A stretch of 64,000 nt of DNA from a virus, in the IMG/VR virus record IMGVR_UViG_3300020122_000238, positions 1 through 64,000 of that record, one strand, 5' to 3'. How positions within the stretch are numbered: the stretch's first letter is position 1; every line of letters starts with the position of its first letter. A program made the position numbers and the translations under genes. A model generated the notes under the pieces. It saw only the letters and a list, made by a program, of their open reading frames with translations, searched no databases and was not told the DNA's origin. Shown here in pieces: positions 18,186 to 58,149 of the stretch.

Positions 18186-18897
18186 CGATTTTGTCGTTGA
18201 ATCTGGAGCTGAACTACCCGACCGTGTCAGGGAATCCTTGTGGGGTCGGGGAGTTACAGACGAGCAGATCAAGCAATTTCAAATTGGGTACATCGACCGG
18301 GTTTTACCAGCGATCAACTACCCCCAAGACTTCGTGTCTTGGTCGGGGGATGGGGGGAAGCTTGACGACTGCTACGTTCTTCCGATTACGAACACCATCG
18401 GTGAGCTTCGAGGCCTCCAATTTCGGCACGTCGAGAGGGAGCGTGGGGGCTACATGGACTTCATTCTCGCTCAGGATGAAGCTGTGGGGTTCGGGCTCGC
18501 TCAGGCAATGCCTACAGTGTGGGAGTCTGGGGAGATCCTTCTGGTAGAAGGCGGGTTCGACCTTCTACCCCTCCAGCGGTTCCTTCCCGGGATTGCTTCA
18601 ACGCTGACTGCTCGGGTCACCGAGGGATTTGTTCGGATCCTACGACGTCTTGTACGCCGCGTGTGGATCGGATATGATATGGATTCGGCCGGAAATAGGG
18701 CGTACGACAGGTTTCGCCAACAGTACGGCCGGGAATTCGATGTTCGTCGGGTAGTTTACCCCCGGGTCACTATGGTCGGCGGTAAGCTGGTCAAGGATCC
18801 TGGAGACCTCTGGGAGGCCTGGGGAGATGCCCGACTTGGTGAGTACCTCCGATCTCATGTGAGGTCGGGTAGCCTGATGGAGTTTCCCTATGGGTAA
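18172..18897 (+). CDS. DnaG-type primase core (TOPRIM), no zinc-binding domain
   Basis: Makes RNA primers. The N-terminal part (RGVTDEQIKQFQIGYID) and YVLPITNTIGELRGLQFR match the DnaG RNA-polymerase core; the TOPRIM acidic residues are Glu126 in LLVEGGFD and Asp169/Asp171 in IGYDMDSAGNRA, followed by KDPGDLWEA. At 241 residues it lacks both the N-terminal zinc finger and the C-terminal helicase-binding domain of full DnaG, so another protein may provide template recognition. Confidence 0.88.
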   Translation: MTWLDDFVVESGAELPDRVRESLWGRGVTDEQIKQFQIGYIDRVLPAINYPQDFVSWSGDGGKLDDCYVLPITNTIGELRGLQFRHVERERGGYMDFILAQDEAVGFGLAQAMPTVWESGEILLVEGGFDLLPLQRFLPGIASTLTARVTEGFVRILRRLVRRVWIGYDMDSAGNRAYDRFRQQYGREFDVRRVVYPRVTMVGGKLVKDPGDLWEAWGDARLGEYLRSHVRSGSLMEFPYG

Positions 18898-19381
18898 GAT
18901 TTACAGTGTGAGTGAGACGGTCGCAACCATTGCGAAGAACCTGATCCCCGGGTATCACCCGGAGCTGGCCACCGCACGGCTAAAGTACGCCTTCGTGGAC
19001 AAGGGTTCGACGAAGTCTGGCCGTCCCGTCCTCGGCAAGGCACGGAAGCTATCGGGCATCTCGCAGTTCTTCATCGACTGCGACTTCATCATCGAGGTCG
19101 CCGAGGACACCTGGAACGAGCTGACGGAGAACAAGCGAACGGCTCTCATCGATCACCTCCTGGAGCACTGTACGGGGGAGGAAGACGACAAGACCGGGGA
19201 CATGGTCTGGGTTCTCCGTACGCCGGACGTCGAGGAGTTCACCTCGATTCTCCGTCGGCACGGTGCCTGGAACGAGACCCTCACGGCGTTCGCGAGCGTC
19301 GCCAAGGCTATCGAGATCGAAGACATGGTGGACGACATCGTGATGTCGTCCTCCGAAGGGGAGTCCGCTCCGGCGCACTGA
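18890..19381 (+). CDS. Phage metallopeptidase-like protein with altered active site
   Basis: Matches the layout of the putative phage metallopeptidase family: HPELATARLKYAF, a central DFIIEV strand, TALIDHLLEHC, and TPDVEEFTSILRRHGAW. In the family the motif is normally DHELCH with a later HDVEEF. Here it is HLLEH (His89, Glu92, His93) and the later His is replaced by Pro112, so the standard HExxH zinc peptidase site is not intact. It may be inactive or use a changed geometry. Overlaps the primase by eight bases. Confidence 0.75.
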   Translation: MGKIYSVSETVATIAKNLIPGYHPELATARLKYAFVDKGSTKSGRPVLGKARKLSGISQFFIDCDFIIEVAEDTWNELTENKRTALIDHLLEHCTGEEDDKTGDMVWVLRTPDVEEFTSILRRHGAWNETLTAFASVAKAIEIEDMVDDIVMSSSEGESAPAH

Positions 19382-19619
19382 AAACCTGTGTGGGACACCA
19401 ACATCATGAACATCACCCGTGCCGGACGGAAGCTGCCGTCCGGCAGCTCTCTCTTGGCGCGAGCCCCTCATTTGACTCAGGAGTGGAGTCCTGAGAAGAA
19501 CCGAGGGATCCAGCCGGAAGACGTTCATGGTGGTTCCCCATTCGAGGTGCGGTGGGACTGTACGGACATTCCTGGTTGTTTTCGAGAATGTCTCCGTTCA
19601 ATCTCAAGGGAAGTCTAAC
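19382..19619 (+). promoter_or_regulatory. Leader region before the clamp loader, with two hairpins
   Basis: The stretch holds a perfect 10-bp stem TGCCGGACGG/CCGTCCGGCA (19420-19445, six-base loop) followed by gctctctctt, and a 7-bp stem CTCAGGA/TCCTGAG (19476-19495). The first looks like a terminator or attenuator. A 76-codon frame (GTG 19388 or ATG 19406 to 19618) crosses both hairpins; it has no ribosome binding site and I do not treat it as a gene, though it cannot be excluded. AAGGGAAG at 19605-19613 serves the next gene. Confidence 0.45.
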
Positions 19620-21080
19620 GTGTGGGATATTCGTTATCGTCCTCAAAAATTCTCGGACGTCCTCGGCCAGCGAGGCACTGTTCAGATCCTCCAGACGCGA
19701 CTTCGTGATGGGACGGCCCTCAGCAAGAACTACATCTTCGCTGGGGGTCATGGTCAGGGGAAGACGACGCTTGCTCGGATCATGGCCAGGGCCATGTTGT
19801 GCCAAGACCTCGACTTGACCAATCCCGAACCTTGTAACGAGTGCGACAACTGCCTGGAGATTCTCGCCGAAACTTCGCTCGCATTCGTTGAGCGGGATGC
19901 GGCGAGCTGCGGGACTGTCGACCACATGCGAGCCCTTGTCGAGGAGCTGCCCTTCGCGGTCTACGGGGCCTCGAAGCGGATCCACCTCTTCGATGAGGCG
20001 CATCGCATGACCCGGGATGCACAGGATGTTCTCCTCAAGCCGTTGGAGGAGAACAAGCTCGTCGGGATCTTCTGCACTACGGAGGTGGAGAAGATCCGAG
20101 CGACGATTCGGTCCCGGTGCGAAGACTACGTCATTCGAAAGGTGACCCGCGAAGACATCCTCGTGAGGATGAAGTCCATCCTCACAGCGGAAGGTGTCTC
20201 CTTCGAGGATGACGCTGTGCTTACCGTCATTGACTATTCGGGGGGACACGTTCGGGATGTCCTCAACCGGCTGGAGATGATCGGGCAAATGGGGGATGTC
20301 AATCTCGCCAACGTGCGGGAGTACCTTCGCCTCCCGCTCGTCTCGACGTACTACGAGATCATGCTCTCGCTTGGGAACCCCCAACGTGCGATCGAGTTGG
20401 TGGGACAGGCTTGTGAGCAGGTCTCTCCTCAAGATGTGGCTGATGGCATCGCCGAAGCGGCGATGAATTCCTACCGGATGGCGAACAACATGTTCGCCGA
20501 CTTCGTCTACGTTGACCGAGCGCTCGGTCAGAAGGTCTACGAAGCGTTCGGCGTGAGCACCCTCAAGCTCTCGGAGTACTTCCTTCAGCGGCGGAACACC
20601 ACAAGGGTGAACCTCTTCTGCGACATCCTCAATCTGGCCGGAGGTATCCCTGCTCCTTCGGCTGTTGGGGTTCCCATGGCACCTCCCATTCAGGTGGTAA
20701 CGGCAGCTCCGGTTCAGGCCACGGCTCCTGTTCAAGCTCCGGTGATCAGCTTGATCGACGCAGTGTCCGCACACCCCGGTTTGGCGGTCCCGGTTGGAAG
20801 CGTTTCGCCGGCTGTCCAGGTCTTGCCTGAAGTGAAGAAGCCGGAGAAGAAGCCCGACGGGACTCGGTTCGATGGGGTGGGCCCCATCGGTTCTGGCGAC
20901 GTCTGCGCCCTGACTGAGCTGGATCACAAGGGCGTCCCTGTGAACAAAGCTCGGGGCCGCAATCACGTCCATGTCCCGGTTTCTTTCCCCCGACGTGGGG
21001 ATCCGGCAGACGACCTTCGTATGTTGACTCCGGATGAATGGCGGCGAGAGTTCGAGCGAACTTGGCCCAGCCGAGGATAG
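19620..21080 (+). CDS. DnaX-like clamp-loader ATPase
   Basis: Loads the sliding clamp. Opens with WDIRYRPQKFSDVLGQ, the DnaX/RFC N-terminal box; Walker A AGGHGQGKTT (Lys48), a zinc module around CNECDNC, Walker B/DEAH-type HLFDEAHRM, and IRSRCEDY for the sensor/arginine-finger SRC. Residues 370-486 form a Pro/Val/Ala-rich linker and a unique C-terminal end. GTG 19620 is chosen because AAGGGAAG precedes it and it puts the box at the N-terminus. It should act on the clamp at 14852. Confidence 0.92.
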   Translation: MWDIRYRPQKFSDVLGQRGTVQILQTRLRDGTALSKNYIFAGGHGQGKTTLARIMARAMLCQDLDLTNPEPCNECDNCLEILAETSLAFVERDAASCGTVDHMRALVEELPFAVYGASKRIHLFDEAHRMTRDAQDVLLKPLEENKLVGIFCTTEVEKIRATIRSRCEDYVIRKVTREDILVRMKSILTAEGVSFEDDAVLTVIDYSGGHVRDVLNRLEMIGQMGDVNLANVREYLRLPLVSTYYEIMLSLGNPQRAIELVGQACEQVSPQDVADGIAEAAMNSYRMANNMFADFVYVDRALGQKVYEAFGVSTLKLSEYFLQRRNTTRVNLFCDILNLAGGIPAPSAVGVPMAPPIQVVTAAPVQATAPVQAPVISLIDAVSAHPGLAVPVGSVSPAVQVLPEVKKPEKKPDGTRFDGVGPIGSGDVCALTELDHKGVPVNKARGRNHVHVPVSFPRRGDPADDLRMLTPDEWRREFERTWPSRG

Positions 21081-21083
21081 TCC

Positions 21084-23060
21084 ATGGCATCACGCCAAAT
21101 CAAACCTGTCATTGACCTCACAAAGCCTTCGGAGTGGGTTGCTCTTGAGCTTGGGCCCAAGGCGGATGGTGAAGACCCGGATCTCATTAAGCAGTCCATT
21201 CGTCACCACCTCCGAGACGCGGACGTGTTCATTCCAGCGTCCGTCACTCAGGTGGGCGGGGACAGGGTCATTCAGTACCTCCTCGAAGGGTATGCTTTCA
21301 TTCGGCGGGCTCATGCTGAGGAGAAGTACTACCGGCTCGAAGGGAGCAAGTACGTTCAGGGGGTCATCAGCCACGTCGACCGAAGTCGCTTTCGGTCGAC
21401 ACGCCGGATTGCGTACGTCCCGGATCATGAGGTCTCCAGGCTACGACGGCAGATCGAGGCACAGGAGAACCAGGGGATCGAGGTGGGGGACCTCGTGCTC
21501 ATCCTATCGGGGCCTTACCGGCTGATCAAGGCGAAGGTCATCGAGGACATTCCAGAAAAGGACGAGGTCCAAGTTTACATTCAGCTCCGCTCCAAGGAGT
21601 CTCTCATCACCTTCCCCCGAGCTGGGCTCAGGCTTGTCGCGAAGGGGGAGAAGAATTTTCTGACCTACCAGACCCGATGGATGACCCTTCAGCAATGGGG
21701 AGAGGCTGCTTTCCCTGTCATGCAGTGGTCCTCGGATGGTTTTGATGGGATCCTTGATGGGCTGGCGTCCTACACAATGCTCGATGTGTGGACCACCAAA
21801 GAGCGGACTCTTCTCGATCAAGACTTGGTCGCTGGTTACGCGCTCGATTTCGACCCCCTTCGGTTGGAGCTACTCTGGGGGGAGCACGCCAAGCTATCGA
21901 CGTGGATTTCGGCGGGGCAGAAGCAGGTGAACTTCCTTCGAGCGATGTCTTCGACTCCTTCCACGGAGCATTTGCTTCAGCTTGGTGAAGAGGTCCAACG
22001 TCTCTCTAGATGGACTACGGCCGTCAACCAGTTGGTGACGGCCGTCCGAGCCTTCAACATAACCCCCTCTCTCACTCCCATCGAATCGCGGTATCTCGAA
22101 TTGGAGTGGCTCCAGGACATTCAGCTCCGGTTGAAGGCCTTGAGCGACAAGTTGACGGACATAGAAGACGATGTGGAAGACCCTGCAATGACCCAAAATC
22201 TCATCATCGACGGCAACAATCTCGCGGTTCGCTGTGGGCGGGCTCCTGGACTCGATCAGCTCAAGGATAAGCAGGGGCGTCCTTCTGGAGTGGTGACGGG
22301 GTTCCTTCGGAGCCTGGGGGCTCTTCGCAAGAGGTTCCCCAAGGCCACCATCTACGTTTGCTGGGACTACTCCTCGCAGCGTCGTATGAGCACCTTCCCC
22401 GGGTACAAGGCGGGGAGGACTCCCTTCGAGGGACGCGACCAGATCGAGTGGCTGAAGGCAGCCCTACCGTCTTTTGGGGTCGTCCAGGCCTACAACGAGG
22501 TGGAAGAGGCCGACGATGCCATCGCGACTCTCGTCTCGGGTCGCCTCAAGGAGGATGTGAACGTCATCCTCTCGAACGACCGGGATCTTCTCCAGCTCGT
22601 GACTGCAACGACGACTGTCCTCGCTCCTTCGAGTGGTCTCCGCCCCGAGAAGCTCTTCGATGTCGATGCCGTGAAGGAGGAATACGGGGTTCCTCCGGGC
22701 AAGATGGTCTACTTCCGGGCCATGTCGGGAGACAGCTCGGACAAGATTCCTGGTGTTTTCAGGCTCCAGGAGAAGACCATCGTGCATTTGATCCGTACAT
22801 ACGGATCCATTGATGGCGTTTTTTCATCTTCTCTGCCAGAGTTGACGAAATCTCAGCAAGAGAAGATTCGTGCCTCTGAGGCACAGGTCAGGAAGAACGT
22901 GGGGCTCATGGCCCTCGTCTCGAACCTGGACCTTACTTTCGTCCACCCGATGACGAACCCGGAGGCAGCCTCGAAGCACCTCCAAGATGTTGATGTGAAG
23001 GTCGAGCCGATGTTGACGGCGTTCTTCCGTCTGGCGGAGTCCCCTACGAATACAACGTAG
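21084..23060 (+). CDS. NusG-like factor fused to 5'-3' flap exonuclease
   Basis: One uninterrupted 658-residue frame with two unrelated parts. Residues about 15-165 follow NusG: an NGN domain (SEWVALELG, VFIPASVTQV, LLEGYAFIRR, YYRLEGSKYVQGVI), YVPDHEVSRLRRQIE, then a KOW domain (EVGDLVLILSGPYRLIKAKV). Residues 165-365 are a helical connector of unknown role. Residues 369-658 are a FEN/T5-type exonuclease: NLIIDGNNLA, CWDYSSQRRMSTFPGYKAGR, NEVEEADDAIA, ILSNDRDLLQLV, GDSSDKIPGVF. ATG 22188, at the start of the nuclease, has ggaag upstream and could give a separate nuclease product. Starts after gagga, four bases past the clamp loader. Confidence 0.88.
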   Translation: MASRQIKPVIDLTKPSEWVALELGPKADGEDPDLIKQSIRHHLRDADVFIPASVTQVGGDRVIQYLLEGYAFIRRAHAEEKYYRLEGSKYVQGVISHVDRSRFRSTRRIAYVPDHEVSRLRRQIEAQENQGIEVGDLVLILSGPYRLIKAKVIEDIPEKDEVQVYIQLRSKESLITFPRAGLRLVAKGEKNFLTYQTRWMTLQQWGEAAFPVMQWSSDGFDGILDGLASYTMLDVWTTKERTLLDQDLVAGYALDFDPLRLELLWGEHAKLSTWISAGQKQVNFLRAMSSTPSTEHLLQLGEEVQRLSRWTTAVNQLVTAVRAFNITPSLTPIESRYLELEWLQDIQLRLKALSDKLTDIEDDVEDPAMTQNLIIDGNNLAVRCGRAPGLDQLKDKQGRPSGVVTGFLRSLGALRKRFPKATIYVCWDYSSQRRMSTFPGYKAGRTPFEGRDQIEWLKAALPSFGVVQAYNEVEEADDAIATLVSGRLKEDVNVILSNDRDLLQLVTATTTVLAPSSGLRPEKLFDVDAVKEEYGVPPGKMVYFRAMSGDSSDKIPGVFRLQEKTIVHLIRTYGSIDGVFSSSLPELTKSQQEKIRASEAQVRKNVGLMALVSNLDLTFVHPMTNPEAASKHLQDVDVKVEPMLTAFFRLAESPTNTT

Positions 23061-23071
23061 GCGGAAGGAAA

Positions 23072-23782
23072 ATGATGTCGACTGGATACGTGATTTCGGT
23101 AGACCCGGCTACTTTGGCCAACCGCTTTCCTTCTGGTCGAGGGAACGAGGAGGAAGACCTCCTCCTCGATCGTCTCCAGATTCTTGAGGACACGGCTGCG
23201 GGCCTCATTCAAGAAGAGGATGACGATGATCCCATTGCAGAGTTCCTCTACTCGGGGGACTACGAAGATCGTCTGGCTCCGCTTCTAGATCGCATCCCCA
23301 AAAGGGAAGCCGATCTCATCTACCTCTACTACATTCAGAAGAAGCGTCAGGCGGATATCGCCGAGATCTTCGACGTCACCCAAGCCGCCATCTCCTATCG
23401 TCTCGATCGGGGTCTTCAGAGGATCAAGTTCCTCCTGTCGATCCCCCAAGTCACTGAGACCGAGCTTCGGCGCGACCTTCCCCTCATTCAAGATGGTCAT
23501 CTCAAGCCTGCGTTCAAGGCCATCGATGTGGACATCTTGGTGGGGATGTGGTCGACGACCTGTCAGAGCGAAGTGGCGATGCGACTCGGCTTGACTCAGG
23601 GTCGAGTCCGGCATCGGTTCTTCAAGGCGGTGAAGCTTCTTGGTGAGGCCTCGGGGAAGGATGGTCGCTTCCTTCGCTATCACAAGGTCTTCGCTGCCAT
23701 TTCGAACAAGAAGTTCAACATCCTCCGTGAGGTGAAGCTCCCCCAGTGGGCGGACCGGGGAGGCGATGCTCTTGACGGGTAG
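23072..23782 (+). CDS. Sigma-factor-like transcription regulator (region 4 HTH)
   Basis: Residues about 68-125 (LLDRIPKREADLIYLYYIQK, QADIAEIFDVTQAAISYRLD, RGLQRIKFL) match sigma-70 region 4, which reads the -35 promoter element. A second helical segment near 160-190 (STTCQSEVAMRLGLTQGRVRHRFF) looks like another HTH. Region 2, needed for -10 melting, is not evident, so it may act with host or phage partners. ggaagga sits just before ATG 23072. It is the last gene before the virion module, where a late-gene activator would be placed. Confidence 0.8.
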   Translation: MMSTGYVISVDPATLANRFPSGRGNEEEDLLLDRLQILEDTAAGLIQEEDDDDPIAEFLYSGDYEDRLAPLLDRIPKREADLIYLYYIQKKRQADIAEIFDVTQAAISYRLDRGLQRIKFLLSIPQVTETELRRDLPLIQDGHLKPAFKAIDVDILVGMWSTTCQSEVAMRLGLTQGRVRHRFFKAVKLLGEASGKDGRFLRYHKVFAAISNKKFNILREVKLPQWADRGGDALDG

Positions 23783-24030: not shown

Positions 24031-24933
24031 TTGCCTATCTCTGCGTCCAATCTCCAAACCCAAGAATACCAGTTCAAAGTCCAGACCCCCTCCGGTCTGT
24101 GGCGGTGGACGACTCGCGTCGATCTTTCGCAGGCAACCCCTGCCTACCAGATCCGTGACATCACCACCCCCTACGGTCTTCTTCGAGACTCGGTCCCCCT
24201 TCCCGGCGCTGTGGTCCAGGAGATGGGCAATTCGATTACGCTGCTCCAGCAACAGTTCGCCCCGTCGATTCTGTTGGGGTTGTCGAGCCTGACTTTTGTG
24301 GTCGATGAGGGTCGAGGCTTCAGTCTCCCCCAAGATATACAGATCACCAACAACGGAGTCTTCGGGTCTCTCCTCGGAACGGTGCTTACAACCTCCGCTT
24401 CCTGGGTGACGGTGGACCCCCAACGGGTGGGTGGGCTTGCCTCGGGTTCTGCGGGAGCCTCAAGCGTTGCTGTGGACTCTACGACGCTCGTGTCTGCGAA
24501 CAGCCCCTATGCAGCCACGATCCTGATTCAGGACCCGTCTGCGGTGAACACTCCGCAGACGGTCTCTATCGCGATTGTGGTTCGGCCGTTGGCCATCATC
24601 AGCCTCAACCCCACTGCTCTCAACTTCGCTGTTGTGAAGCCGATCAGCGGTCCGTTTTCTGGGGTTCTGACCCAAACCTTCCAGATCACCAACACAGGTC
24701 CGACGGGATCTCTTCTCGACTACCAGATCCAAAAACTCTGTGGGTGTACGGATTGGTTGTTTTCCTTCAACCCCCCGTACAACACCCTTGCCTCTGGGGC
24801 CTCGCAAACGACAACGGTCAGGGTTCAGCCCCCGGACACGATGTGTCCGGGGACCTATACAGAGACCCTACGCGTGAGCGGGTACAGTCAGAACTACACT
24901 CAAGACGTCGTTGTGACTCTTGTCATTTCATGA
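24031..24933 (+). CDS. BACON/Ig-like domain virion protein
   Basis: 300 residues with two tandem beta-sandwich repeats: about 95-185 (LTFVVDEGRGFSLPQDIQIT ... SWVTVDP) and 187-300 (NFAVVKP, FQITNTGPTGSLLDYQI, PGTYTETLRVSGYSQN). Such repeats are common in phage surface proteins that bind carbohydrates. The start is TTG 24031, since gatgagg lies seven bases upstream and no ATG is in frame. First gene of the virion module. Confidence 0.7.
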   Translation: MPISASNLQTQEYQFKVQTPSGLWRWTTRVDLSQATPAYQIRDITTPYGLLRDSVPLPGAVVQEMGNSITLLQQQFAPSILLGLSSLTFVVDEGRGFSLPQDIQITNNGVFGSLLGTVLTTSASWVTVDPQRVGGLASGSAGASSVAVDSTTLVSANSPYAATILIQDPSAVNTPQTVSIAIVVRPLAIISLNPTALNFAVVKPISGPFSGVLTQTFQITNTGPTGSLLDYQIQKLCGCTDWLFSFNPPYNTLASGASQTTTVRVQPPDTMCPGTYTETLRVSGYSQNYTQDVVVTLVIS

Positions 24934-29679: not shown

Positions 29680-32600
29680 ATGGCATCCCCCAAAACCAAA
29701 GCTGAGAATGCTGGGACGAGCCTTGCAGCGCTCGTTCGAACAGCAGGGCAGCAGGCAAAGACAACGGTTGTTGAGAACCTCGAAAAGGAGGCCCTCTCCC
29801 AAATCGAGGTCGTCGATGGGGACCCCCCGGCTCAAGTACGGCCCGCGACGGCTCGTATTTTCAGCATCCTCGACTACATCGAACAGCCTTGGGGGTTGAA
29901 TCTCACCCTCTATCCTGTCCAGAAATTCATCGTCAAGCTCTACTACCACCTACCGTTGGAAAGCAAGGTCAAGACCATTGAGGTCAAGGACATGTTCAAT
30001 ACGGTTCTGTTGCACCATTTCACCGAAGTGGAGTACCTCAAGTTCTTGTACGAAGATGGCCGTTGCAACATCGGCGTACAGGATCATATACGCCGAGAAC
30101 TCCTACTTTCCATAGGTCGTCGTGGGGGAAAATGTGTTACAGGTGACACATTGGTCCTCACCGACCATGGTATCATTCCTATTGAAGAGCTGGGTACAGC
30201 TTCGAAAGAGGACTTCTCTGAATTGAAAGTTGGTGTTGCTCAGGAAGGATCTACCTTGTCTGAGTCCTCCCACTTCTACAATGGTGGGGTGAAGCCGACA
30301 TACCGTCTTCGTACGAAGGCTGGGTATTCGATCTGCGGTACGGGAAATCACCGCGTTCGAGTCATGACTTCCTCAGGCAAAGTCGACTGGCGGTATCTCG
30401 ATGAGCTACGTCAAGGAGACTTCGTCGCGATCCATCGTGGGACGGACTTGTGGGCTTCCGAGAATCTCGACCTTGAGCCTTTCCACAACGGAGATGGTCA
30501 CAAGGATGTCAAGCTTCCTGGTGTTCTGGATGAGAAGCTTGGAAACCTGCTCGGGTATCTAGTCGGGGATGGTACTTGGGGGGACGGGCACGCTATCTCT
30601 CTCACGGTCGAGCACCACGAGACGTGGCGTCATCTTCGATCTCTCATTTCAGAAGTGTTCGGGGCTCCCCGCGTCCAGATGGACAAGCGGACGAAGAATA
30701 CAGGGCGGATCGAGTTCTGTAGCGTCCGAGCCCGAAGGTTCCTTGACGCATTGGGGTGGTCTCTCGATTGTACCCGAGACACCAAGATGATCCCTTGGGC
30801 CATCCTACGGTCTCCCAAGACGGTCGTCTGTGCCTTCCTCAGGGGTCTTTTTGAGACGGACGGCTGCGCTGAGTCTGGTGGGAGGAAGGTTACTTTCTCC
30901 ACCGCCAGCTTCCAGTTGGCTCATGAGGTTCAGGTAGTTCTCTTGAACCTTGGGATTGTGTCTAGTGTTCACCGTAAATGGAACACCAAGACTGAGCGTT
31001 ATTACGCTTATCTGAATTTGCTTGGGGTTCGATCTCGACGTCGGTTCGCAGAACTCGTCGGATTTGATTCGCTTAAAAAGCAACGCCCCCTGCTTGCATC
31101 TCTTCTCGTTGCTGAGGAAGGGAAGTCGGATACAGAGAGCATTCCTCATCAGTACCGAAGGGTGCGAGATCTTCTTGAGTCTATTCCCAAGCGGAACCCG
31201 AGTCGTGGCGAGATGGGCTGGGGTCGATCGAAGCTCCGCCAGGCTATTGGTAATACCTGCAAGCCTGGTTCTGGGGAAGACTTGACGTATCATCGTCTAG
31301 CCAAAGCAATCAAAATCGCAGATGAGCTGGCGGCGAGGCATACCGAGATTGCTCATTTCGAAGAGCTTCTTCGTCTCGATTACTTTTACGATCCAGTGAC
31401 TTCTGTGGAAGAAGGGGAGGATCAGGTCTACGATCTCTCTGTCCCTGTGGGTACATCCTTTGTTGCCAACGGGATGACGAACCACAACACAACATTATCG
31501 GGAATTTTCGCGAGCTATGAGGTCTACCGACTTCTGAATTTGGGGAACCCCCAAGGATACTACGGTCTTCCGAACGGTAACCGTATTCAGATCGTCAGCA
31601 TCGCGACGGACAAGGATCAGGCAGGTCTTCTCTTCAACGAGGTGACCTCACACTTGAGTCGTTGCGAGTACTTCAAGCCCTACATCGCCAACAACACCCT
31701 GAGCCACATTCAGTTCAGGACCCCCCACGACATCGAGAAGTACGGGGCGACAAGCCGGCACGAGAACGGCAAGTTCACCTCGTTCAACGGCAAGGCGACC
31801 ATGAGGGTCACCTTCAAGTCCTGTATCGCGAAGGGGCTTCGTGGCGCGGGTAATGCTGTCGTCATCATGGACGAGATGGCCCACTTCAAGGACACGGGGC
31901 AGTCGAGTGCGAAGGACATCTACGACGCCGTCACTCCTTCTACCGCCGCTTTCTCCCCGAAGGACCCCAACGACACGACGAAGCCAATTGGTGACGTCGA
32001 GGCTCGGGTTATCGCTATTTCGTCGCCTCTCAACAAGCAGGGGAAGTTCTACGAGCTGTATCACCAAGCAATGAGCGGAGGTGAGCCGGCCAAGAATATG
32101 ATCGCGATTCAAGCTCCGACATGGGAAATCAATCCCACGGTTCCTGCCGACTACTACCGGCAGAAGTACCACGCCGATCCTCTGGTCTTCATGACCGAGC
32201 ACGGGGCGCAATTCTCTGATCGTGTCCGTGGTTGGATCGAACGAGAGGTGGATCTCCTGGACTGCATTGATGCAAACCTACGTCCCAAGGAGGCGGGGCG
32301 TCCTCGTGAACCACACCAGATGGGGATCGACATCGGGCTCATGGGGGACGGGACGTCGATTTTCATCACTCATGTCGAGAACAACGAGATCGTTCTGGAC
32401 TACCATGAGTCGTGGTATGCTGGTGTGGACTGGCGTGAGACGAATTCCCATCTTGGGGGTTCCCCCTCGATGGCCTATGCCCGCGGCCTGAAGGACGTCG
32501 AGCGCCTGGACTTCGAGGAGATCGGGAACTGGATCGAGAACCTGACCAAGAGGTTCTTCATCACCGCCGGGATCTTCGACCGTTGGAACGGTATCCCGCT

Positions 32601-33072
32601 GGAGCAGGCTCTCAACAAGAAGGGGCTCAAGCAGTTCAAGTCGGAACACTTCAAGCGCGACTTGTCGAGCCAGATATACCAGAACACGAAGCTCATGATG
32701 TTCGACCGGAAGCTCCGTCTCTATGACTGGCCCAAGGCCACGGTCGGGAACCGGCACTCTCCTTTCATTCAGGAGTTGCTGGGCCTTCAGGCTGAACAGG
32801 TCTCTCGGAACTTGGTCATCGTCTCGGCTTCTGAGACGGTTGGCCAGCATGACGACATGGCTGACGCCTTCGTTCGAGCCGTGTGGCTGTCTGCTCAGCG
32901 CATGACGAATACCCGGCTCGCTCTTGGTCCTTCGGACAGTCGCGGTCAGACGGGGATGGGCATGTCGCTCGCTCGCTACCAGATGGCTCGAGCCCGCAAC
33001 CACGGTGGGTTCTCACAGCGGGTCGTGCCGAGGGGCAGCGGCATGGGGCTTCGGTCGCGAGGAGGCCGGTAG
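29680..33072 (+). CDS. terL: Large terminase subunit precursor containing an intein
   Basis: DNA-packaging motor: ATPase plus nuclease. After removal of the intein (residues 152-603) the mature protein would have 678 residues. The Walker A GRRGGK-TT is formed only by splicing; Walker B is VVIMDEMAHF (Asp731/Glu732 of the precursor). The RNase H-like nuclease domain has GIDIGLMGDG (Asp884), GIFDRWNG and HDDMADAF (Asp1058-1059). The C-terminal 60 residues are Arg/Gly rich. Starts at an ATG within GATCCATGG three bases after the previous gene. Confidence 0.95.
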   Translation: MASPKTKAENAGTSLAALVRTAGQQAKTTVVENLEKEALSQIEVVDGDPPAQVRPATARIFSILDYIEQPWGLNLTLYPVQKFIVKLYYHLPLESKVKTIEVKDMFNTVLLHHFTEVEYLKFLYEDGRCNIGVQDHIRRELLLSIGRRGGKCVTGDTLVLTDHGIIPIEELGTASKEDFSELKVGVAQEGSTLSESSHFYNGGVKPTYRLRTKAGYSICGTGNHRVRVMTSSGKVDWRYLDELRQGDFVAIHRGTDLWASENLDLEPFHNGDGHKDVKLPGVLDEKLGNLLGYLVGDGTWGDGHAISLTVEHHETWRHLRSLISEVFGAPRVQMDKRTKNTGRIEFCSVRARRFLDALGWSLDCTRDTKMIPWAILRSPKTVVCAFLRGLFETDGCAESGGRKVTFSTASFQLAHEVQVVLLNLGIVSSVHRKWNTKTERYYAYLNLLGVRSRRRFAELVGFDSLKKQRPLLASLLVAEEGKSDTESIPHQYRRVRDLLESIPKRNPSRGEMGWGRSKLRQAIGNTCKPGSGEDLTYHRLAKAIKIADELAARHTEIAHFEELLRLDYFYDPVTSVEEGEDQVYDLSVPVGTSFVANGMTNHNTTLSGIFASYEVYRLLNLGNPQGYYGLPNGNRIQIVSIATDKDQAGLLFNEVTSHLSRCEYFKPYIANNTLSHIQFRTPHDIEKYGATSRHENGKFTSFNGKATMRVTFKSCIAKGLRGAGNAVVIMDEMAHFKDTGQSSAKDIYDAVTPSTAAFSPKDPNDTTKPIGDVEARVIAISSPLNKQGKFYELYHQAMSGGEPAKNMIAIQAPTWEINPTVPADYYRQKYHADPLVFMTEHGAQFSDRVRGWIEREVDLLDCIDANLRPKEAGRPREPHQMGIDIGLMGDGTSIFITHVENNEIVLDYHESWYAGVDWRETNSHLGGSPSMAYARGLKDVERLDFEEIGNWIENLTKRFFITAGIFDRWNGIPLEQALNKKGLKQFKSEHFKRDLSSQIYQNTKLMMFDRKLRLYDWPKATVGNRHSPFIQELLGLQAEQVSRNLVIVSASETVGQHDDMADAFVRAVWLSAQRMTNTRLALGPSDSRGQTGMGMSLARYQMARARNHGGFSQRVVPRGSGMGLRSRGGR
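30133..31488 (+). mobile_element. Intein with LAGLIDADG homing endonuclease, in the terL P-loop
   Basis: 452-residue in-frame insertion beginning Cys (CVTGDTLVLT, splicing block A) and ending VPVGTSFVANGMTNHN, followed by Thr as the +1 residue. Block B is represented by GTGNHRVRV. Two dodecapeptide motifs, LLGYLVGDG (about 292) and LRGLFETDG (about 387), show an apparently intact DOD-type endonuclease. It splits the Walker A sequence between Lys and Thr, a highly conserved site typical of intein homing. Base composition is somewhat more AT-rich than the flanking terminase. Confidence 0.95.
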
Positions 33073-57240: not shown

Positions 57241-58149
57241 ATGGCATACGATCTAAATCACATCTTCACGTACCACCGTCCCACTGCGGATCAGCTCCCG
57301 AAGTACGAGATGATCCGAGATGCAGCGAAGACTTTCGCCTCGGTCGTTCTCGCGTGTACTCCCGCTGGGGAGGACCAGACGACGGCCATTCGGCACATCA
57401 GGGATGCGGTCATGACCGCCAACGCGGCCATCGCTTTGAAGGGCGTCCTGACCAAGGGTGAGACCTTGCTGAAGGCTCTGTCTAGCAAGGTCTATGCGTC
57501 CATCGAGCGGGATGATGTCCGTGTTGCTCGGCTCTACATCAACAACGAAGAGTACGTGACTCTCCGAACGGAGTGCTTGGCATCGTTCGATAGGACGTCC
57601 AACCGAGCAATCATTGAGGCAGGCATCATGGGGAGTCTGTTGGGCGCTCAGGTATACATCTCCGAAGCTGTTCCTCCGGGCTTCGCTTGTGGATTTGCGG
57701 ACGACGCCGACTTTCCCACCCTTGTGATCACTCCGGAGCTGATCCAGACGAAGCTCGTGAACCTCTGCGACTATGGGGATGCGGTTTCGGTATACCCCCG
57801 GCCGGATGCTGTGGCCCGAAAAGCGGCTGTGATGAAGGCCTACGCGGAGAGGGTCTTCGCTTCCCATGGGGCTGCGGGCAATAAGGTCGAGCACATCTAC
57901 ATGAACGCGTACGAGTATGCGGACATCCGCAAGTTCGGACACGATGTCCTGGAGATCGAAAGCCAAGCTATCATCCTCCGCAAGGGGATCATGGGGGTCT
58001 TCCACGGCGCACAGGTCCACGTCTCGCGGGAGGTTCCTCGCGGACAGGTGGCTGTTTTCGCGACGGGGGACGTGATCCCTGAGAAGGTCTCGGAGATGAA
58101 GTTCTTCACGCTGATGTACCCCGAGGAGCAGGGGTCGGCAGCGGTGTAG
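57241..58149 (+). CDS. Acb2/Tad1-type hairpin domain fused to duplicated capsid fragment
   Basis: Residues 5-69 (HIFTYHRPTADQLPKYEMIR ... AIRHIRDAVMTANAAIALKG) match the Acb2/Tad1 hairpin domain, a helical family whose studied members bind cyclic di-, tri- or gcADPR-type nucleotides and so block CBASS or Thoeris. Residues 84-160 and 203-280 are two copies of the A-domain segment of this phage's major capsid protein: VARLYINNEEYVTLR...LLGAQVYISEAVPPG and VEHIYMNAYEYADIRKFG...FHGAQVHVSREVPRG, against VARIYMNAVDYADIRKFG...WGAQIITSRLVP. A 20-base stretch (gcggacatccgcaagttcgg) is identical to the capsid gene. ggagaaat precedes ATG. Confidence 0.8.
   Translation: MAYDLNHIFTYHRPTADQLPKYEMIRDAAKTFASVVLACTPAGEDQTTAIRHIRDAVMTANAAIALKGVLTKGETLLKALSSKVYASIERDDVRVARLYINNEEYVTLRTECLASFDRTSNRAIIEAGIMGSLLGAQVYISEAVPPGFACGFADDADFPTLVITPELIQTKLVNLCDYGDAVSVYPRPDAVARKAAVMKAYAERVFASHGAAGNKVEHIYMNAYEYADIRKFGHDVLEIESQAIILRKGIMGVFHGAQVHVSREVPRGQVAVFATGDVIPEKVSEMKFFTLMYPEEQGSAAV

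Follow-up and report, generated by a model that had tools for sequence, protein, structure and literature searches.

A NusG/Spt5-type transcription factor and a flap endonuclease encoded as one conserved protein in a clade of huge phages

RNA polymerase (RNAP) is bound at the clamp helices of its largest subunit by the NGN domains of all NusG/Spt5 family members studied (PMC7819879). In E. coli NusG, a loop formed by I164, F165, and G166 contacts Rho, and RfaH does without this loop (PMC7593976). In B. subtilis, the flap endonuclease (FEN) acts preferentially on RNA-DNA hybrid flaps and nicks; a role in Okazaki primer removal has been proposed for it (PMC10191290). In phage T4, the product of gene 33 is a late-transcription coactivator that connects the clamp gp45 to the late sigma factor gp55 (PMC2988020), and the FEN gene rnh adjoins dsbA and gene 33. 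We found no earlier description of a NusG-FEN fusion in phages in a search of open papers, with few subscription journals and preprints among them.

We analyzed a 64,000-nucleotide stretch of viral DNA (the window; positions 1 to 64,000 of IMG/VR record IMGVR_UViG_3300020122_000238, which is 275,300 bases long). In it, a NusG-like part and a FEN share one gene, which lies between a clamp-loader gene and a sigma factor gene:

19420 to 19445, plus strand: terminator-like hairpin 5' of dnaX (10-pair stem with 8 G-C pairs; found by pattern match alone)
19527 to 21080, plus strand: dnaX-type clamp-loader gene (PHROG clamp loader, E = 8.4e-52; Pfam; synteny)
21084 to 23060, plus strand: fused gene for NGN-KOW, helical connector, and flap endonuclease (658 amino acids, open frame)
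21126 to 21461, plus strand: NGN domain, residues ~15-126 (NusG/RfaH/Spt5 fold match; T. maritima NusG profile match)
21471 to 21644, plus strand: KOW domain, residues ~130-187 (fold match, column counts, NusG alignment)
21654 to 22187, plus strand: helical connector, residues 191-368 (five predicted helices at low pLDDT; weak internal repeats)
22175 to 22190, plus strand: GGAAG and internal ATG (22188-22190), the former nuclease start (unfused relatives start at the same position)
22188 to 23057, plus strand: flap endonuclease domain, residues 369-658 (Pfam, alignments, FenA fold match)
23072 to 23782, plus strand: Sigma-70 region 4 protein (Pfam Sigma70_r4, E = 2.5e-13; PHROG sigma factor; synteny)

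The fused frame opens with an ATG at 21084 and runs through 658 codons to a stop at 23058-23060, with zero internal stops. A preliminary description, made from the sequence alone, had read it as a NusG-like factor joined in a single frame to a flap exonuclease, and had named homologues as a test of that reading. We searched IMG/VR using the full protein as well as profiles of the NGN and FEN parts, and classified the resulting open frames. This yielded 40 non-identical FEN sequences fused to NGN-KOW (a few of these genes being near-copies of one another), with FEN identity down to 34% and on contigs of up to 529 kb; in 6 relatives the parts are neighboring separate genes. Thus, both domains and their single frame held up, as did the choice of test, and the contrary expectation, that homologues would always encode the parts separately, failed; other details of that description needed revision, as given below. 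Two genes joined by an assembly error or a frameshift would be an extremely improbable origin for this frame. Indels are possible in principle in metagenome contigs, and we found no support beyond that; the same fusion is open in 40 non-identical sequences on many contigs, which rules such an artefact out, and neither the window nor these homologues has a stop or frameshift between the parts.

For pairs with usable dS (window-L002, L032-L040, L041-L042, L033-L046, L069-L076, and L018-L020), dN/dS was 0.035-0.091 in NGN-KOW, 0.085-0.203 in the connector, and 0.054-0.110 in the FEN; purifying selection acts on each of the three parts. These low values in every part indicate that translation and selection extend over the entire fusion and, with the frame open in 40 homologues, they exclude chance as well as artefact. 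These data demonstrate that the fused NusG/Spt5-type and FEN protein is genuine and is conserved among a large clade of huge phages. Among bacterial genome contigs, no relative was confirmed, and among the matches listed for named phages the full protein was matched in its FEN half only. As a separate observation, dS between the window (21084-23057) and L002 (6001-7974) falls along the gene, from 0.49 in NGN-KOW through 0.29 in the connector to 0.14 in the FEN, which hints at recombination or silent-site constraint in the 3' part.

The NGN and KOW features reported earlier for the N-terminal half were borne out by profile and by fold, although the half scored below threshold in a single-sequence Pfam search (15.2 bits, under the 22.2 cut-off). 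It matched the PHROG family "transcription antiterminator" with an E-value of 2.5e-5 and T. maritima NusG with an E-value of 1.1e-5 alone and 3.2e-8 with a profile of 11 relatives. NusG, RfaH, and Spt5 were the top Foldseek matches of the predicted structure of residues 15-189 (E of ~2e-9 to NusG). VIA-align of the predicted fold to archaeal Spt5 gave a Z of 10.6 over residues 17-188, and the KOW domain matched the E. coli NusG C-terminal domain with a fold Z of 9.8. The order of NGN then KOW, which is a criterion of the NusG/Spt5 family, is thus found here by profile and by predicted fold. In named phages, the only NGN match was in LR745208, with Bacillus phage G and others appearing just at chance-level E-values. 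Where E. coli NusG has the Rho-contact loop IFG, the window and nearly all family members have LRS. As read from the residues, this would exclude the Rho-recruiting type of NusG and not membership of the NusG/Spt5 family; with LRS instead of IFG, Rho recruitment is unexpected, and an antitermination role appears more likely for the NGN-KOW half.

A helical connector of 200 residues had been proposed between the two halves. The connector is present, but its length is ~178 residues (191-368) and its helices are predicted at low confidence; among relatives, its length ranges from 93 to 197 residues. Self-similarity within the connector reached a z of 15 in L016, 11.5 in L056, and 4.5 in the window, with none in many relatives, and a repeat array was dropped as a general feature of the connector, being clear in the first two, moderate in the window, and absent in many. 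Structure predictions were built from 10-11 sequences, with pTM values of 0.46 and 0.35, and the models fix neither the orientation of the domains nor that of the connector.

The C-terminal half matched Pfam 5_3_exonuc_N over residues 373-535 (E = 4.8e-27; 95.1 bits, cut-off 34.3) and 5_3_exonuc over residues 536-619 (E = 3.1e-13; 50.5 bits, cut-off 40). Nine acidic residues (D376, D428, E475, D477, D478, D499, D501, D550, and D553) are invariant in the family alignment and align with those of M. smegmatis Pol I and FenA. With both Pfam domains and all catalytic carboxylates in place, the FEN motifs are complete from residue 369, as had been stated. The earlier label of FEN/T5-type needs refining, the predicted model being nearer to the mycobacterial FenA and Pol I 5'-nuclease type than to T5 FEN (Z 27.1 over 280 residues on FenA; 19.7 on T5 FEN). 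The conserved ILxAFF end was considered as a C-terminal clamp-binding peptide and dropped; in the model it falls within the last helix, and that helix aligns with the end of FenA.

In unfused relatives, the FEN mostly starts 6-8 codons, usually 7, before the first catalytic aspartate. A start codon is retained at this old FEN start in 36 of the 40 fusions, the exceptions being L056, L067, L078, and L087. It is an ATG in most and a GTG or TTG in several (L033, L046, L072, L041, and L042), and in some fused genes an ATG sits a few codons upstream of the old start. Complementarity to the 16S tail before the retained start averages -6.0 kcal/mol versus -4.1 kcal/mol at other in-frame ATGs, with a Shine-Dalgarno p of 3e-5 over the family that is too small, since the rows are related. 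The preliminary description had pointed to an internal ATG with a ribosome binding site at 22188. The ATG is there and the start is kept family-wide, but the binding site of the window is ordinary, with a Shine-Dalgarno energy (-4.0 kcal/mol) equal to the average of other in-frame ATGs. The retained internal start may thus give rise to free FEN in addition to the fused protein.

The true start of dnaX is probably downstream of 19527. On the plus strand, the search detected no terminator-like site from dnaX to the sigma gene; together with the strong hairpin before dnaX, this suggests that dnaX, the fusion, and the sigma gene are co-transcribed as one unit, with the hairpin at 19420-19445 as its possible boundary. 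The gene order primase-type Toprim, metallopeptidase-like, dnaX, NusG-FEN (fused or separate), sigma, Ig-like is constant in nearly all fusion contigs. Nearby genes encode an NAD-dependent ligase, a RecD2-like helicase, RecA, an SbcD-like phosphoesterase, a PD-(D/E)XK nuclease, and the primase-type Toprim protein. The record also carries a Pol A gene (966-aa frame), in which the FEN profile found no 5'-nuclease part. Across the whole record, which is possibly incomplete, we found no second FEN by profile, no second NusG-like gene of the same family, no RNAP beta' domain, and no match to the one Pfam model used for beta-clamp domain 3 (PF02768).

Other genes of the window and its relatives gave observations of their own. 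The small conserved gene 5' of dnaX (18890-19381, plus strand) matches a Pfam phage metallopeptidase (E = 1.3e-28) and, in conflict with that, a PHROG transposase (E = 1.2e-14). The Ig-like (HYDIN-type) protein encoded at 24031-24933 (plus strand) is conserved directly after the sigma gene in fused relatives and looks odd beside replication genes. In L011 (10678-10890) and L012 (10646-10783), the sigma gene is followed by a second, short stretch resembling residues ~133-195 of the sigma-like protein; it may be a DNA-binding gene that arose by duplication. A large frame at 29680-33072 (plus strand) contains an intein bearing a LAGLIDADG domain, and the dnaX frame of L016 (5263-7989) is interrupted by a related intein-like stretch with 36% identity to it, so that inteins apparently spread from gene to gene in these phages. 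The gene at 57241-58149 (plus strand) encodes a protein with an Acb2/Tad1 hairpin domain (E = 3e-11). Phage proteins of the Acb2/Tad1 family bind and withhold the signalling nucleotides of host defence, and this gene is a possible counter-defence gene.

In FEN trees, the 40 fused rows cluster together, with L087 and L078 on long branches and the FEN-only row L091 joining L087 in the careful tree. Two relatives with separate genes fall inside the fused clade: L006 pairs with L012 at an ultrafast bootstrap of 100, and L071 with L074 at 91. In both, the NusG-like protein still ends in a connector, the two genes of L006 overlap as ATGA, and both are apparent fissions of a fused gene. The deep two-gene lineages L082, L083, L086, and L088 have NusG-like frames of 173-227 amino acids without a connector; their NusG-like and FEN genes still lie between dnaX and sigma, and three of the four (three being the number scored) match the PHROG "transcription antiterminator" family. 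In L090, NGN-KOW is joined straight to the FEN without a connector. The best tree puts L090 outside the fused clade, as a possible second, independent fusion; one origin for all fusions including L090 is absent from that tree, yet it is not rejected by the AU test (p = 0.105), and long branches make the placement of L086, L087, and L090 uncertain. In LR745208, a 485-kb uncultured phage genome, dnaX, a NusG-like gene, and sigma follow one another with no FEN between, and the FEN profile had no match in that whole record. We infer that an old dnaX-nusG-fen-sigma neighborhood was fused and then kept, the transcription factor being first in the replication-transcription cluster, the nuclease being or becoming its neighbor, and the fusion arising later via a growing arm.

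The likeliest model, which we hold tentatively and at a little under even confidence, is that an RNAP-docked factor tethers a replication FEN. The NGN domain would dock on the clamp of the host RNAP, which is the presumed partner since no phage RNAP was found, and the docked NGN-KOW would act as an antitermination-type elongation factor. The helical arm would keep the only detected 5' nuclease of the phage near RNAP, where it would remove RNA:DNA hybrids (Okazaki primers or remnants of R-loops) as well as 5' flaps at sites where transcription and replication of the phage DNA meet. The shorter product from the internal start could serve bulk Okazaki processing beside a Pol A without a 5' nuclease. 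The model draws on the conservation of the fusion, the purifying selection that includes the connector, the NusG/Spt5 and FEN folds, the clamp-loader/sigma neighborhood, the Pol A without a FEN part, the finding of no other FEN, no other NusG of this family, and no RNAP beta' in the record, the possible second fusion in L090, the binding of NGN domains of known family members to clamp helices (PMC7819879), and the preference of a bacterial FEN for hybrids (PMC10191290). We consider it unlikely that the protein is a dedicated transcription-replication conflict machine, in which a phage elongation factor on host RNAP would carry the sole 5' nuclease on its arm of variable length, free nuclease would come from the internal start, and RNA of R-loops or Okazaki fragments would be trimmed at encounters of forks with transcription units. 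The preliminary description had likewise suggested that the fusion, tied to RNAP, perhaps clears R-loops or handles transcription-replication collisions.

The main rival to tethering is a fusion of convenience, in which adjacent, translationally coupled genes lost a stop and the two halves do unrelated jobs, one as elongation factor and the other as Okazaki nuclease, the fusion persisting through a fixed expression ratio or through harmlessness while the internal start gives free nuclease. We regard this as possible but somewhat doubtful. It would fit the adjacency of the genes already in unfused deep relatives, the ATGA overlap in L006, and the start that 36 of 40 fusions retain, where the family ribosome-binding energy is above average. 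It would also fit the two apparent fissions, whose position within the fused clade indicates that covalent linkage is not indispensable, and a retained start that frees the nuclease would weaken the need for a tether. However, the fusion has been retained for long across a deep clade, its connector is under purifying selection, and L090 may be a second fusion, made without a connector. Alternatively, NGN-KOW may have lost RNAP binding and become an adaptor for nucleic acid or the replisome, delivering the nuclease to the fork or the clamp loader, which we judge quite improbable. While the very divergent NGN below the Pfam cut-off, the adjoining clamp-loader gene, and the replaced Rho-contact loop speak for such an adaptor, the unfused relatives match transcription antiterminators and adjoin the sigma gene, and LR745208 has its NusG-like gene between dnaX and sigma in a genome where a FEN was not found.

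In a large group of giant phages, this single protein may thus tie transcription physically to replication. A FEN fusion that is selected lineage-wide offers a handle on the meetings of host RNAP and replisome in phages with long genomes, and the system is testable: a single gene has relatives in nature that are fused or unfused, an arm that varies naturally in length, and a predicted second product.

Compared with NusG, RfaH, and Spt5, the fused protein has the same NGN-then-KOW order and the predicted fold of NusG and archaeal Spt5; it differs from them in its connector and nuclease, in its very divergent sequence, and in having LRS for IFG. The gene for gp582 of Bacillus phage G, annotated as NusG-like, stands alone and away from a cluster of the dnaX-sigma type. 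With M. smegmatis FenA, the Pol I 5'-nuclease, E. coli ExoIX, T5 FEN, and T4 RNase H, the nuclease half shares the PIN-type core, the nine acidic residues, and the helix-hairpin region (Z of 27 for FenA and 18-20 for the T5 and T4 enzymes). The other phage FENs that we found are separate genes or lie within other proteins, whereas this one follows an N-terminal elongation-factor half. The T4 late-transcription system (gp33, gp55, and gp45) also keeps genes for clamp loader, sigma, transcription factor, and FEN in one group, and the T4-type feature of a phage sigma gene with replication genes is seen here in the Sigma-70 region 4 gene directly downstream. This likeness is a parallel in gene order only, and here a single protein unites the transcription factor with the FEN.
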